Source: Planctomycetota bacterium (GTDB lineage: Bacteria > Planctomycetota > Phycisphaerae > UBA1845). From it: DNA of 64,000 nucleotides. Each line of letters opens with the position of its first letter. The stretch's first letter is position 1. The position numbers and the translations under genes are program-made. The notes beneath the pieces were generated by a model. It searched no databases. It saw nothing but the letters and a program-made list of their open reading frames with translations, and was not told where the DNA came from. The DNA lies in the NCBI GenBank assembly GCA_029558835.1, contig JAKQDH010000063.1, positions 20,332-84,331 of the forward strand, given 5' to 3'. Shown here piece by piece: positions 5,263 to 35,306 of this stretch.

Positions 5263-7116
5263 ATGAACGTACGGTTTACCGGCAGCTACGAGGAGTTCAG
5301 GGAGAAGCTCCAGCACATCAGTGGTGTGTGGCGCGATTTGAACCCGAACCAGAAGCAACTCCGAACGCCCGCAGGCGGAGTCCTGAACTGGTACCCGTCG
5401 ACCGGATCGCTCACCTTCCAAGGCAACTCGCCTGGTGCGGAGAAGTTGCGTGACGAGGTCATTGCCGCTCTCACGGGTACGCCCGTCGATGCTGCGCCCG
5501 GCTTGACGCCGCAGAGGGAAACTGTCCCGGAGAGACACGGTGCTGAAGTCACAGTCCCCGTGCCCATGGCAACAGCAGAGTCAGGGGCAGGTCGGTCTGG
5601 GCTGTTGCAGAGGGCCTTCTCCGAGTCCGAGTTGGTGTTTGCACTGATTGGAGCGGTCGGCACAGAGCTGCAGAAGGTGCGGGGTATTCTCGACGACTGG
5701 CTAAGAAAGGCTGGCTACTCGGTCAGACAGATCCGGATCACGCAAGACGTGATCCCGAAGATCGTCGAGAACATCCCACGTTCCGGAAGCTCCGAATACG
5801 ATCGGCTCAGTGGCCTCATGGATGCGGGGAACGAGGCGCGCGCTACATCAGGTGACAACTCGATACTGGCTCTTGGCGCTGCCGCGTACATCAACTCCCA
5901 AAGGAGCAAGGACGAGAACGGGTGCCCGCAACATGTACCCAGGTGTGCGTACGTCATCAGTTCGCTCAAACACCCCGACGAGGTTGGTCGTCTGCGCGAG
6001 ATCTATCCGCAGGGGTTCTACCTCATCGGTGTGCATGCTGACGAAAAACGGCGGTTTGACTACCTGACCAAAGACAAATCGATATCCGACGCCAAGGCGA
6101 ACGAGCTCATCGACCGCGATGAGAACGAGCACCTACCCCACGGCCAGAGAGTTGCCGACACGTTTCACCTCTCCGACTTCTTCGTGCGGATCGATGGGCA
6201 GGACGACCATCTGAAAGACAGCGTGTGGCGGATTCTCGAACTCCTCTTCGGGAACCCGTACGTGACCCCGACTTTCGATGAGTACGCCATGTTTCTCGCC
6301 TTCGCGGCTTCACTCAGCTCCGCCGACCTGTCCCGTCAAGTCGGCGCCGTCGTGGCGGTCGACGAGCAGGTCGTCGCCACCGGTGCCAATGACTGCCCTC
6401 GTGCAAACGGCGGACGATATTGGCCCGTGCGCAATCCCAAGACGCACCGGATCGAGGACCAGGAGGACGGGCGCGATTACATGAGGGGCGAAGATTCCAA
6501 CAAGGTCGAACAGCAGAAGATCATCGATGAGATCCTAGACCGCGCGGAGAAGACTGGGCTTGACCGCGAGAAGGTCCGTGAGGCCCTCGACGCAAGCCGT
6601 ATCCGCGACTTGACCGAGTTTGGGCGCGTAGTGCACGCGGAAATGGACGCTCTGCTTTCCTGCGGTCGAATCCGAGCGCCTACCCAAGGCGGCACACTCT
6701 ACTGCACCACCTTCCCGTGCCACAACTGCGCCAAGCACATTGTGGGGGCTGGAATCCACCGTGTTGTGTTCATCGAGCCGTACGAGAAGTCGAAGGCTGC
6801 CGAGTTTCATTCGGACTCGATCCAGGTCGGTTTTGCCGACCTGGGGTCCCCGCCTGATGACCGCCGGATGGTATGCTTCGAGCCCTTCGTCGGCGTTGGT
6901 CCCCGGCGGTTTTTCGACCTCTTTTCAATCCGGCTCGGTTCCGGGTATCCTGTGGAGCGGAAGAACGTAGCGGGGCGGGTGATGGAGTGGAAGGCTGGGC
7001 AAAGCGGGCTCCGGCTCCAGATGTTGCCCGCGTCGTACCTGGACCTGGAGTTCGTCGCCGGAGACATGTTCAACAAAGCCCGCAGCGCGGTCACGGAGCT
7101 TGGCAATGGAGGTTGA
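5263..7116 (+). CDS. Anti-phage dCTP/dCMP deaminase (AvcD-like) with extra N-terminal domain
   Basis: 617 residues. Residues 1-70 form an additional small domain with WYPSTGSLTFQG. Residues about 122-340 are the P-loop-like nucleotide-kinase-fold region that opens FALIGAVGTELQKV, as in AvcD-type proteins. From about 345 to 560 is the zinc-dependent cytidine/deoxycytidylate deaminase domain: His458-Ala-Glu460 (VHAEMDALLSCGR) and Cys486/Cys489 (TFPCHNCAKHI) give the zinc ligands and proton shuttle. Family members degrade the cytosine deoxynucleotide pool on phage infection. The known system has an antisense or inhibitory RNA beside it (avcI); only 58 bases separate this start from the upstream remnant and I cannot recognise such an RNA. 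Length exceeds typical AvcD (about 530) because of the N-terminal domain. Confidence 0.85.
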   Translation: MNVRFTGSYEEFREKLQHISGVWRDLNPNQKQLRTPAGGVLNWYPSTGSLTFQGNSPGAEKLRDEVIAALTGTPVDAAPGLTPQRETVPERHGAEVTVPVPMATAESGAGRSGLLQRAFSESELVFALIGAVGTELQKVRGILDDWLRKAGYSVRQIRITQDVIPKIVENIPRSGSSEYDRLSGLMDAGNEARATSGDNSILALGAAAYINSQRSKDENGCPQHVPRCAYVISSLKHPDEVGRLREIYPQGFYLIGVHADEKRRFDYLTKDKSISDAKANELIDRDENEHLPHGQRVADTFHLSDFFVRIDGQDDHLKDSVWRILELLFGNPYVTPTFDEYAMFLAFAASLSSADLSRQVGAVVAVDEQVVATGANDCPRANGGRYWPVRNPKTHRIEDQEDGRDYMRGEDSNKVEQQKIIDEILDRAEKTGLDREKVREALDASRIRDLTEFGRVVHAEMDALLSCGRIRAPTQGGTLYCTTFPCHNCAKHIVGAGIHRVVFIEPYEKSKAAEFHSDSIQVGFADLGSPPDDRRMVCFEPFVGVGPRRFFDLFSIRLGSGYPVERKNVAGRVMEWKAGQSGLRLQMLPASYLDLEFVAGDMFNKARSAVTELGNGG

Positions 7117-7324
7117 CAAGCAGAAAGCGAAGCAAATGCCGGTTCAAGCAAAGGCGCACCAAGGACAACGCGATGCGTTCGTCGAGCATTTGGAGCAGGC
7201 CAGTAGGGTGGTCGGAACTTGGCCGGATTGGAAGCAGCGAATCCTCGGGGGTACACCCGCTCCGCCTCAAGCGGTACCGCCCAAGGCGCCCGGATCATCT
7301 GGGTGTGCTGCGCCAGCGCAGTAG
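7106..7324 (+). CDS. Small protein overlapping the deaminase gene, WPDWKQ motif
   Basis: 72 residues from ATG 7106, with GGAG about eight bases upstream, inside the last codons of the deaminase gene (11-base overlap), so probably co-translated. The visible pattern is a helical segment DAFVEHLEQASRVVGTWPDW followed by KQRILGG and a Pro/Ala-rich tail. The TWPxWK motif resembles small uncharacterised proteins found in many genomes, but I cannot name a family. Role with the deaminase (partner, regulator, or unrelated passenger) is unknown. Confidence 0.5.
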   Translation: MEVDKQKAKQMPVQAKAHQGQRDAFVEHLEQASRVVGTWPDWKQRILGGTPAPPQAVPPKAPGSSGCAAPAQ

Positions 7325-7446
7325 CGATTCCCCGGGGAGGAACGGGTACGCAGCTAGTTTCAAAGATCGTGTGCGTCCCGGTTCCCGTGGTTCCTTGTCA
7401 GGTGCCGACGCAGTCTCCGTGGGGCAGCCGACCAGTGATGGGTGAC

Positions 7447-31903: not shown

Positions 31904-32109
31904 GGCGTGAGCGCCGCCCTGCGGGGTTGCGCAGTAGCCGTCGCGCGGACCGCGGCCAGGTACGTCAGTTGAGCCGGAACGAAGCCGGCCCACGGAGTGA
32001 TCTCCGGGGGCCGGGGTTGCGTAGGGGTCGCGTGTGGATCATCCGCGCGTTACGCGCGCGTGCACCAGTCACCGCGTACTCGCGCTGCCCGACCGGGCAG
32101 CGCCTGCGT

Positions 32110-32667
32110 TCACGTGTGCCGTCGCCTGTGTCGGTGCCATATCGTGGCACTTCCACCCGCGGCGAGCCCGCTTGCCAGCAGCAGCACACCCCATGCGGCA
32201 ACCGCAGGCACCGGCGGATCCGCGCACCCATGAATGAGCTGGGCGTTTGGTCCGTCACAAACGTACCCGGGTTGGCACTGCTGGCTCGGCGTCCAGCGGC
32301 ACCAGGAGTACCGCCCGGCCTGGCAGGCAGCCACGCAGGCGTCGTACGTCGCATTGTTCATGCACCCATCCTGGGCGCCAATGACGCTGTCCCTTCACTC
32401 ACAACATCCGGTACCACAATAGAAGAAGATCGTGGGGTTAGGGCAGGTGTTGTCGGGATTGCAGACCGCGAACGGGTCCGGGTCCCACTCGCACCAGTCC
32501 CACCCGCCGGCCTGGCAGGCTTGTTGACACTGTTCGGCCGTCACCCAATCGGTATCGCAGGCAGACTGCCCGCTGTACCTGTGTCACCCTCAGCACGTAG
32601 CTTCCGCCCGGATGGTGGTGAACAGCACCACCCCGAGCATCCCCAGGAGCAGCCATGTACGGTTCAT
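32110..32667 (-). CDS. Candidate exported multi-selenocysteine protein with two Cys-rich repeats
   Basis: One frame of 185 codons from ATG 32667 (GGGAGG eight bases upstream) to TGA 32110, with no TAA, TAG or frameshift but three in-frame TGAs: codons 26, 28 and 91. Residues 1-23 are a signal peptide (MNRTWLLLGMLGVVLFTTIR, cleavage after AEA). Two repeats follow: Cys25-Cys75 and Cys88-Cys137. They align as C-U-G-U (25-28) with C-C-E-U (88-91), then Cys at 47/111, 51/115, 59/123, 69/131 and 75/137, with ACQAG and WC-x-W shared. So TGA 28 matches TGA 91, and TGA 26 matches Cys89. The end (PVPAVAAWGVLLLASGLAAG plus a basic tip) is a sorting/anchor-like tail. Read as selenoprotein: redox-active exported protein. 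Alternative: a pseudogene, whose third fragment could restart at Met103. Confidence 0.6.
32362..32378 (-). promoter_or_regulatory. Putative bacterial SECIS hairpin for TGA codon 91
   Basis: On the coding strand GCGCCC AGGAT GGGTGC forms six pairs (one G-U) with loop AGGAT. The loop begins 22 nucleotides after the TGA and has G at its second position. Known bacterial SECIS rules ask for a loop of 3-14 nucleotides about 16-37 nucleotides after UGA, with G among the first two loop bases. Confidence 0.5.
32557..32573 (-). promoter_or_regulatory. Putative bacterial SECIS hairpin for TGA codons 26 and 28
   Basis: Coding-strand GCGGGCA GTC TGCCTGC forms seven pairs (one G-U) with loop GTC, first base G. 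The loop starts 17 nucleotides after TGA 28 and 23 after TGA 26, both inside the bacterial SECIS window. A single element could serve both codons of the C-U-G-U motif. Confidence 0.5.
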
Positions 32668-33101
32668 GTTTCCATTCCTCCCAAATATGATGTGAGCACG
32701 TTCGCGTCAGCCCCCCACGCCTTCGCACCGCAGGCAACTGCGGTCGCACCTGGATGGCGTCCCCACCGCCGAGTGGGTGTTGCCATCCTGAACCAGAGTT
32801 GATAGACACCAGGATACCGTGGAGCCGGCACCGGGGGAAGGGGGTGCTTCCCATCCGGGGACTGCGTGAGCCCACGAGGGCCGGGCGGCGCGCGGTTCGC
32901 GGGGGGCCAGGCCCGGGCCCTGCGGCTGGACGCCGCCGCCGACACGGTTCCCCTGCTCACGTCTGCGCCGGCCACTGCGTCATGCCGGGATGCTGTATCA
33001 CCCCCTGGTCGAACACGCTACGATACGACAAGCGGCACCGGGGTGCAGGGCGCGGGCCCGGTTGACACTTGGGGGGATCCGGGAGAAAGCAGGCGACCGT
33101 C
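32668..33101. other. 434-bp divergent intergenic region
   Basis: Lies between the candidate selenoprotein (minus) and the GH31 gene (plus); promoters for both are expected. CATATT near 32683-32690 (complement) could be a -10 of the minus-strand gene. No other gene or structure seen. Confidence 0.4.
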
Positions 33102-35306
33102 ATGAAGAAGCCAAGCAGAACGGCCTCCGGGCGTGCCCATCCCGCTGCGATGGTCCAGGCCGGGCGGGCCCGCTTCACCGTGCTGACGCCTTCCCTGGTA
33201 CGCCTGGAGTACGACCCTACGGAGCGGTTCGAGGGGCGTCCCACCCTGTTCGCCGTGCGACGGCGCCTGCCGGTTCCGGCCATGACCGTCCAACGGGACG
33301 GCGAGGTTCTGACGATCCAGACGGACCGCCTGTGCGTACGCTACGCGCCGGGGCCCGAGGGGCTCGGCCAGGACAACCTCTCGATTGTCGTGCCCACACC
33401 AGCCGGCGAGGTTCGCTGGGTACCCGGGATGCGCAACACCGGGAGCCTCGGCGGCACCTTGCGCACGCTTGATGAGTGCAGCGGCCCGGCCCCGCTTGGT
33501 GACGGCGTGCTCTCCCGCGCGGGATGGTTCGTGCTGGACGACTCGCACGCTCCGGTGCTGACCAACGGCTGGATCGCGGCCCGCGCGGCCGACCCGGCCG
33601 CCGTGGACTGGTACTTCTTCGGCTACGGGCGCGACTACGAGACCGCCCTGCGCGACCTGCTGGCCGTGGCGGGCCCCGTGCCTCTGCCGCCGCGGTTTGC
33701 ATTCGGAAGCTGGTATTCCCGCTACTGGCCGTACCCGGCACGCGACTTCGTCAAGATCGCCGATCAGTACCGCGCCCACGCCTTTCCGCTGGACGTCATG
33801 GTGCTTGACATGGACTGGCACCTGGAAGGGTGGACGGGCTACACCTGGAACGCGAAGCTGATTCCCGACCCGACGGCGCTGCTGAAGGCCCTGCACGCGC
33901 GAGGTCTGCGGGTCACGCTGAACCTCCATCCGGCCGACGGCGTCCATCCGCACGAACGGGCGTACCCGGCCTTCGCGGAGGCGTTGGGACGCAACCCCAG
34001 CGAGCGACAACCCATCCCCTTCGATGTTACCGACCGCAACTACATGCGTGAGTACTTCCGGCTCCTGCATCATCCGCTGGAGCGGCAGGGCGTGGACTTC
34101 TGGTGGATCGACTGGCAACAGGAGCGTCGCTGCGCGGTGCCCGGGCTCGATCCGCTCCTGTGGCTGAATCACCTGCACGCCACCGACGCCGGGCGACCCG
34201 GAACGAACCGGCGCGGGCTGCTCCTGAGCCGCTGGGCCGGTTGGGGCAACCATCGCTACCCGTTGCACTTCTCCGGCGACACGCACGCGAGCTGGGAGGT
34301 GTTGCGTTTCCAGGTGCGGTTCACGGCAGCCGGCGGCAACGTCGGGGCGACCTACTGGTCGCACGATCTGGGCGGACACTACGCGGACGAGCGGACGGAT
34401 CCCGAGCTGTTCGTGCGCTGGCTGCAATTCGGGGCGTTCACGGCCGCGCTGAGGGTGCACAGCACGCGCTCGGCCCACAACGACCGCCGGCCCTGGCTGG
34501 ACGGACCGCCGTTTGACGAGGTCGCCCGACGCGCGTATGCCCTGCGTTATCGCCTGTTGCCGTATATCTACACGATGGCCCGCCGGACGTACGACACGGG
34601 CCTGCCGCTGGTACGACCAGTGTACCTGGCGTATCCCGACGAGGAACGCGCCTACCGGGCCGAGGGGCAGTTCCTGTTCGGCGATGACCTGCTCGTGGCG
34701 CCGGTGACCCAACCTGGCACCGGCCCGCAGCGCGTGGCCGACGTTACGGTCTGGCTGCCGCCGGGGACTTGGTGCCACCTGCTGACCGGCGCCGTGCACG
34801 TGGGGCCGGTGGAGCTCACGCTGAGCCTGCCGCTGGACATGATGGCCGTGTTCGTCCGCGCGGGCGTGCCGGTGCCGATGGCGCCGCCGGGTTGCCTGTA
34901 CAGCCGCCAGACCGAGCGGGCCCTACACGTACGCGTGCACGCCGGGCCGGCCGGGAGCGCCCGTTGTTACCACGATGACGGCGAGACCAATGCCTATCAG
35001 GGCGGGCGCTACGCCTGGACCCACCTGGAGTACGCCCCGCTGGACGGCGGCGCGCACGAAATCCACGTCGGGCCATTGGCAGGCGAACCGGCCGTCGTGC
35101 CCTTCCGCCGCGATACGGTGTTGGAACTGGTCGGCACCGCGCCCCCTCGCGAGGTGCGGGTTAATGAACGGGTGCTGAGCCCCCCGCAGTGGGTCTACCG
35201 GGCGGGGTCCGCCACGACGCTCGTGACCCTGCGGGCATTGCCGACGCGCGAGACCTGTATCATCCGGGTGGCTGCACCGGTGGACGCGAGCGTCCCGGCC
35301 GGCTGA
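33102..35306 (+). CDS. Glycoside hydrolase family 31 (alpha-glucosidase/xylosidase-like)
   Basis: 734 residues from ATG 33102 (an 11-residue longer frame was rejected). N-terminal beta domain (about 20-200), then the TIM barrel: PPRFAFGSWYSRYWPYPARD, DVMVLDMDWHLEGWTGYTWN, and the nucleophile motif FWWIDWQQ with Asp337. HFSGDTHASWEVLRFQV contains the expected acid/base Asp393. C-terminal beta-sandwich segments follow (FLFGDDLLVAPVTQPGTG; YHDDGETNAYQGG). No signal peptide is evident, so it is probably cytoplasmic, hydrolysing alpha-linked glucose or xylose oligosaccharides. The exact specificity is not set by these motifs. Stands alone. Confidence 0.92.
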   Translation: MKKPSRTASGRAHPAAMVQAGRARFTVLTPSLVRLEYDPTERFEGRPTLFAVRRRLPVPAMTVQRDGEVLTIQTDRLCVRYAPGPEGLGQDNLSIVVPTPAGEVRWVPGMRNTGSLGGTLRTLDECSGPAPLGDGVLSRAGWFVLDDSHAPVLTNGWIAARAADPAAVDWYFFGYGRDYETALRDLLAVAGPVPLPPRFAFGSWYSRYWPYPARDFVKIADQYRAHAFPLDVMVLDMDWHLEGWTGYTWNAKLIPDPTALLKALHARGLRVTLNLHPADGVHPHERAYPAFAEALGRNPSERQPIPFDVTDRNYMREYFRLLHHPLERQGVDFWWIDWQQERRCAVPGLDPLLWLNHLHATDAGRPGTNRRGLLLSRWAGWGNHRYPLHFSGDTHASWEVLRFQVRFTAAGGNVGATYWSHDLGGHYADERTDPELFVRWLQFGAFTAALRVHSTRSAHNDRRPWLDGPPFDEVARRAYALRYRLLPYIYTMARRTYDTGLPLVRPVYLAYPDEERAYRAEGQFLFGDDLLVAPVTQPGTGPQRVADVTVWLPPGTWCHLLTGAVHVGPVELTLSLPLDMMAVFVRAGVPVPMAPPGCLYSRQTERALHVRVHAGPAGSARCYHDDGETNAYQGGRYAWTHLEYAPLDGGAHEIHVGPLAGEPAVVPFRRDTVLELVGTAPPREVRVNERVLSPPQWVYRAGSATTLVTLRALPTRETCIIRVAAPVDASVPAG

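Follow-up and report, generated by a model that had tools for sequence, protein, structure and literature searches.

A predicted exported protein with three in-frame UGA codons in a planctomycete, a candidate multi-selenocysteine family

Introduction

Does a frame that is broken by three in-frame TGA codons in a planctomycete genome encode a complete exported protein, in which these codons are read as selenocysteine (Sec), or do they mark a decayed or wrongly assembled gene? The frame lies in a stretch of 64,000 nucleotides of contig JAKQDH010000063.1 (assembly GCA_029558835.1), here called the window. A first-pass annotation, made from the sequence of the window, had read the three TGAs as Sec and proposed an undescribed exported selenoprotein. 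Genes for Sec have been reported in planctomycetes (available part of PMC4807772); no such protein is mentioned in that part, the paper's candidate table aside. The proposal is evaluated below by comparison with other genomes, by a survey of the Sec machinery, by a scan for candidate SECIS hairpins and by comparison with known families.

Reading frame and layout of the gene

The frame runs on the minus strand from 32667 to 32110, with TGA at codons 26, 28 and 91, and its end codon is also TGA, which the first-pass annotation leaves unmentioned (Table 1). The openness of the frame is by itself little evidence, because 205 stretches without TAA or TAG, each 186 codons long or longer, occur in the six frames of this GC-rich window. 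All the elements that had been annotated at first sight, namely a 185-codon minus-strand frame with these three TGAs, a ribosome binding site, a signal-peptide-like start and a hydrophobic, Arg/His-rich tail, were found again. Within the 185 codons there are 17 Cys and three UGAs, arranged in two modules. With U written for TGA, module 1 reads TCUGUHRYSGQSAC...CQQACQAGGWDWCEWDP and module 2 reads CCEURDSVIGAQDGC...CVAACQAGRYSWCRWTP. The motifs at the module starts are C-U-G-U and C-C-E-U, and the 'CxxU-like' description given earlier is replaced by CC-x-U and CU-x-U. On the other hand, the Cys spacings of 4, 8 and 6 that had been reported do recur in both repeats when counted by eye (C47-C51-C59 with C69-C75, and C110-C114-C122 with C131-C137). 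The upstream neighbour is a divergent alpha-glucosidase/xylosidase-like gene (33069-35306), and downstream there is a short, uncertain frame on the opposite strand followed by a tRNA-Gln; this context does not suggest an operon with the neighbours.

Table 1. Features of the gene and of its predicted product, in window coordinates.
Feature	Position	Strand	Basis
Whole frame, 185 codons and terminal TGA; TGA 26, 28 and 91 predicted Sec	32110..32667	minus	ATG start, homologue
Ribosome binding site GGAGG with 9-nt spacer before ATG	32668..32681	minus	sequence
Signal-peptide-like N-terminus, codons 1-23, cleavage predicted after AEA	32599..32667	minus	judged by eye
TGA codon 26; opposite Cys89 (module 2) and Cys27 (homologue)	32590..32592	minus	module alignment
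TGA codon 28; column of TGA91 and of homologue TGA29	32584..32586	minus	module alignment
Candidate SECIS hairpin GCGGGCAGTCTGCCTGC, common to TGA26 and TGA28	32557..32573	minus	model scan
TGA codon 91; P0005 and P0007, fragments in the protein database, stop at the residue before	32395..32397	minus	alignment
Candidate SECIS hairpin GCGCCCAGGATGGGTGC after TGA91	32362..32378	minus	model scan
C-terminal tail from VPAVAAWG: hydrophobic stretch, Arg/His-rich end; IPTL-CTERM-like, below cut-off	32110..32211	minus	sequence, profile score

A homologue in another genus

The search for homologues covered 51 genomes of the window's family and returned one clear homologue, which belongs to a different genus of that family (genome G003; contig JAUWWQ010000003.1 of the Planctomycetota MAG CSMAG_2662). 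At the DNA level the evidence comes from two genes, this one and the window gene. The homologue (P0002) has 129 residues, with an AGGAGG preceding its ATG, a signal-peptide-like start, a single module, the tail VPTVSAWG and a TAG stop. Its module reads CCQUDFKDGRSDC...CIQACHAGQYDFCQWSP and has one in-frame TGA, at codon 29. When the three modules are aligned with U written as C, all three prove to have TGA in the second TGA column, so this column offers no Sec/Cys pair. At the first column one module has TGA and the two others have Cys, and the Sec/Cys pairing that is expected of a bacterial selenoprotein is found there, at TGA26. The alignment bears out the repeat pairing proposed earlier (TGA28 in the column of TGA91, TGA26 opposite Cys89) and, as had been advised as a check, places TGA or Cys of the relative in these same columns. 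No homologue with Cys alone was established. A Cys-rich open frame of another genome (L022 of G043, contig C6) has an IPTL-CTERM-like tail, and its match (136-420) starts NCCFTRDVDFDGDLEC...AAACTAAGG...C, with CC at the module start and Thr, neither Sec nor Cys, at the U column. With an E-value of 0.003, this frame is possibly a remote relative of the module that lacks Sec.

The same pair of genes indicates whether the frame is coding through its TGAs. GC at third codon positions is high throughout, at 0.84 before the TGAs, 0.76 between them and 0.76 after them. When TGA is translated as Cys, the in-frame comparison with the homologue gives, for the two modules, E-values of 1.6e-17 and 7e-15; a BLASTP comparison of the proteins gives 3e-13 and 4e-13, with 42% and 38% identity over two aligned stretches. 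By contrast, the best that blastn finds with the same DNA is a match of 26 bases (E 0.049). Since the proteins are alike and the DNA hardly matches, it is the protein encoded in this frame, the part downstream of the TGAs included, that has been under selection. An antisense gene at the same place was considered and rejected, its best match being weaker (2.4e-9 versus 1.6e-17). On these comparisons, the window frame is coding through its TGAs and is conserved across them.

Fragments in the protein database and the C-terminal tail

A single-sequence search of the protein database with the full window protein gave no match at E 1e-3. Profile searches returned the protein's own two pieces (P0003 and P0004) together with pieces from three other contigs. 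Fragment P0005 (62 aa, 75% identical over the aligned part) and fragment P0007 (76 aa, from a public contig of 1214 bp) both have GCCE as their last residues and end exactly at the equivalent of codon 90; both are known as protein sequences. As the two end just before TGA91, they appear to be relatives cut by gene callers at the same point. The third piece, P0006 (86 aa), begins at the Met after TGA91 and covers the part beyond it. The longest contigs behind P0005 and P0006 have 2561 and 2112 bp. P0007 retains the signal peptide and the remainder of module 1 and lacks the segment with TGA26 and TGA28 (C-U-G-U), which may be a true deletion or an artefact of the gene model.

The tail resembles that of IPTL-CTERM proteins (PF18203/TIGR04174), which share with the window protein a signal-peptide-like start, an exported domain, a VPTVSAWG-like motif, a hydrophobic stretch and a basic end. 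The window protein differs in that its tail (P0003) scores 12.0 bits against PF18203, below the Pfam cut-off of 20.8 bits; the homologue scores 19.4 bits, and P0006, at 32.9 bits, lies above the cut-off. Tails of this kind (e.g. VPAVSAWG, IPAVSQWG) were seen in nine of the ten other matches from the search of the family genomes, the window's genome and locus L018 being excluded. Among the literature matches listed, no paper joins IPTL-CTERM to selenocysteine, selenoproteins or Planctomycetes.

Selenocysteine machinery

Earlier it had been advised to look for selA, selB, selC and selD in the same genome. The window's genome does harbour selA, selB (over its cut-off, at 360 bits), a tRNA-Sec (UCA; TCA anticodon in the gene) and two selD genes, both over cut-off. 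One of the latter has an in-frame TGA within ASCAGUAGKL, a UAGK motif. SelD is an experimentally verified selenoprotein family with the motif UxxK, according to the available part of PMC13188914. Because UAGK fits the listed UxxK, the TGA-containing SelD serves as an internal positive control and indicates that UGA is decoded as Sec in this lineage. Across the 51 family genomes, tRNA-Sec is over cut-off in 41, and selA in 44 (47 at E 1e-3). The genome of the homologue has selA, selB and a TGA-containing selD as well; no tRNA-Sec over cut-off was found in it (97% complete), the three best places being other tRNAs, and this is perhaps an assembly gap.

The second selD, with GCACK and without TGA, lies in an open frame of 779 residues in the window's genome (L081, contig C96) and of 741 residues in G003 (L080, contig C69). 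The same frame contains IYLDYNATTPLDP, which we take to be the start of a cysteine desulfurase, and its sequence suggests a NifS-SelD fusion that stands beside a separate Sec-containing SelD. A link of the locus to selenium had also been drawn from genes of TusA/YedE type near the start of the window. These genes are present (1400-2803, minus): one is TusA/YedF-like, and after it come two that resemble YedE/YeeE half-transporters. Their matches to the selenium-specific NCBIfam models fall far short of the cut-offs, and the link stays as weak as it was. Elsewhere in the window's genome, a YedE/TsuA-like frame (6764-7354, minus, locus L029) adjoins selB, with selA near the same selB (L029, 3893-5335).

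Candidate SECIS hairpins

In the bacterial SECIS model, as stated in the available part of PMC13188914, the loop has 3-9 nt with a G in its first two positions, the stem has 4-16 pairs, the loop lies 16-37 nt from the UGA, and the energy is -7.5 kcal/mol or better. A scan against this model, limited to perfect stems, found fitting hairpins after all three internal TGAs of the window gene, in the form of two distinct hairpins. The hairpin common to TGA26 and TGA28 has -9.8 kcal/mol and its loop lies 23 nt from the former and 17 nt from the latter; the hairpin after TGA91 has -10.1 kcal/mol, with the loop again at 23 nt. The hairpin of the homologue, GACGGTCGGTCCGACTGTT, also fits (-8.1 kcal/mol, 17 nt), and a further one, at 33 nt (-8.0 kcal/mol), is present in both SelD genes. 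In the same comparison the terminal TGA gave -3.7 kcal/mol, outside the model.

These hairpins give weak support because such structures are common in this GC-rich DNA. Fitting hairpins follow 375 of 2833 codons (13%) in ten gene frames picked by the analyst, 9.8% of all 1450 TGA triplets in the window, 57 of the 186 codons of the window gene's own frame (31%) and, in the homologue, 14 of 129 codons (11%). About 5% of gene codons are followed by a hairpin whose stability equals that of the hairpins at TGA26/28 and TGA91. Compared with shuffles, the single-strand folds after the TGAs are mildly better (z -1.96 and -1.52). A strong hairpin, CTGCCC-GGTC-GGGCAG, with GGU in its loop, follows the terminal TGA186 (window 32050-32112, minus); it has no T run for a terminator, and the next TAA comes 19 codons on. 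TGA186 was considered as a fourth Sec codon and rejected: the loop of this hairpin starts 15 nt after the TGA by a hand count, one base too near for the minimum of 16, and the homologue has TAG there. For both these reasons TGA186 is read as the stop.

Relation to known families

The modules fit none of the models in NCBIfam or Pfam. Among the NCBIfam models, the window protein (P0001) matched only HetP, at E 0.1, and the homologue matched tail models (2.6e-5 and 0.0029, below cut-off) besides chance matches; neither protein matched the named multi-Sec families. A fold search gave no match that would support any function. An inventory of 2026 counts 119 families or subfamilies of prokaryotic selenoproteins, of which the great majority have one Sec and a small minority two or three (available part of PMC13188914). 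Its motif column shows CxU, CU and UxxU, and neither C-U-x-U nor CC-x-U appears in that column. The multi-Sec families include NF041115 (UxxU, two Sec), MbdU NF045648 (CU, two Sec), the ferredoxin-thioredoxin reductase NF041072 (CxU, two Sec) and NF041537 (UxxG/CxxU, three Sec), as given in the same part of PMC13188914. Like the window gene, the bacterial multi-Sec families have several in-frame UGAs and a Cys adjacent to or one residue from Sec; they differ in motifs, the window protein matches none of their models, and the inventory table gives no signal peptides or tails.

Animal selenoprotein P, as described in the excerpts available, resembles the predicted product in being a secreted (plasma) protein with several Sec; it differs in being eukaryotic, with its SECIS in the 3' UTR, and no sequence relation to the window protein is claimed. 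UxU is mentioned once in the available part of PMC11818150, and the main text of PMC5029168 holds no mention of Planctomycet, multiple Sec, TusA or YedE. Among the literature matches listed, mostly as bare list entries, no description of the window protein was found. On its sequence, the protein is best read as belonging to a new and rare selenoprotein family that is exported, membrane-anchored and likely redox-active. The unusual features predicted for such a family are three Sec, U-x-U, export and module duplication.

Proposed mechanism and rival explanations

The columns of the UGAs hold UGA or Cys in the related modules and the Sec machinery is present in the genome, which together lead to the prediction of a new protein that is exported, is tethered to the membrane and carries three Sec, and uphold the Sec reading of the first-pass annotation. 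With high confidence, then, the gene is taken to encode a predicted exported Cys-rich protein with three internal UGAs that are likely read as Sec, at the start of two duplicated modules, and with putative C-x-U redox pairs. SelB and tRNA-Sec would insert Sec at all three UGAs, one hairpin serving both UGA26 and UGA28 and the second hairpin serving UGA91, and the terminal UGA would end translation. Once the signal peptide is cut off after AEA, the mature protein would start TCUGU, and the tail would anchor it in the membrane, facing outwards. Each Sec may form a reversible selenenylsulfide redox pair (C-x-U) with its neighbouring Cys, and the other invariant Cys of each module would form structural disulfides.

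In favour of the TGAs being true stops of a decayed gene or sequencing mistakes, the single-sequence search of the protein database found no homologue of this gene length. That account is nevertheless very improbable: a divergent homologue in a second genome has a TGA in the same column, which makes an assembly error less likely, conservation is specific to the frame downstream of the TGAs, and fragments come from other contigs, two of them ending at the same point. Scarcely any credence is given to read-through of UGA as Trp or a near-cognate residue, with no selenium involved. The conserved Trp of the modules is encoded by TGG and TGA terminates five of the 13 other gene frames in the window, so that TGA does not serve generally as a codon for Trp in this DNA; furthermore, TGA26 stands opposite Cys, not Trp, and the genome has the full Sec machinery. 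Improbable too, though less so, is a protein with fewer than three Sec, in which only UGA28 and UGA91 are efficiently decoded and UGA26, a recent change from Cys, mostly terminates or is poorly read. UGA26 does occur in one module of one genome, with Cys in the other two modules, and has to share a hairpin with UGA28; however, that hairpin lies at the same spacing from UGA26 as the second one from UGA91, and a stop at codon 26 would abolish the remainder of a conserved protein.

The main functional rival to a redox role is soft-metal binding, in which the decoding is the same and CC-x-U/CU-x-U would bind Cu(I), Hg(II) or a similar ion and would not act as a redox pair. COX17 binds copper via a CCxC motif. 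The two best PDB sequence matches of the window protein are COX17 copper chaperones, with a weak profile match over the N-terminal part of the module, and the density of Cys and UGA codons noted above would suit such a role; the matches, at E 0.12 and 0.68, are not significant, and by eye no metal-resistance gene was recognised in the neighbouring frames, some of which were scanned against families. Several selenoprotein families in the available part of the inventory are themselves named metal-binding or mercury-related (PMC13188914). Metal binding is accordingly held to be a serious but distinctly less probable role for the exported three-Sec protein.

Implications for the family

Such genes escape notice: the protein database searched contained only pieces of them. 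If an exported three-Sec protein with U-x-U is confirmed, it would raise the question of whether one bacterial hairpin can serve two UGAs that lie six bases apart. With moderate confidence, the family may be described as one in which the number of Sec grows by module duplication and Cys-to-Sec change, from one in the single-module relative to three in the window protein. In it, two UGAs separated by a single codon would be decoded by one SECIS hairpin, the mature N-terminus would carry C-U-G-U as a redox or metal site, and a fourth UGA of the frame would still terminate. The single-module and double-module forms would then offer a natural series for the change from Cys to Sec.
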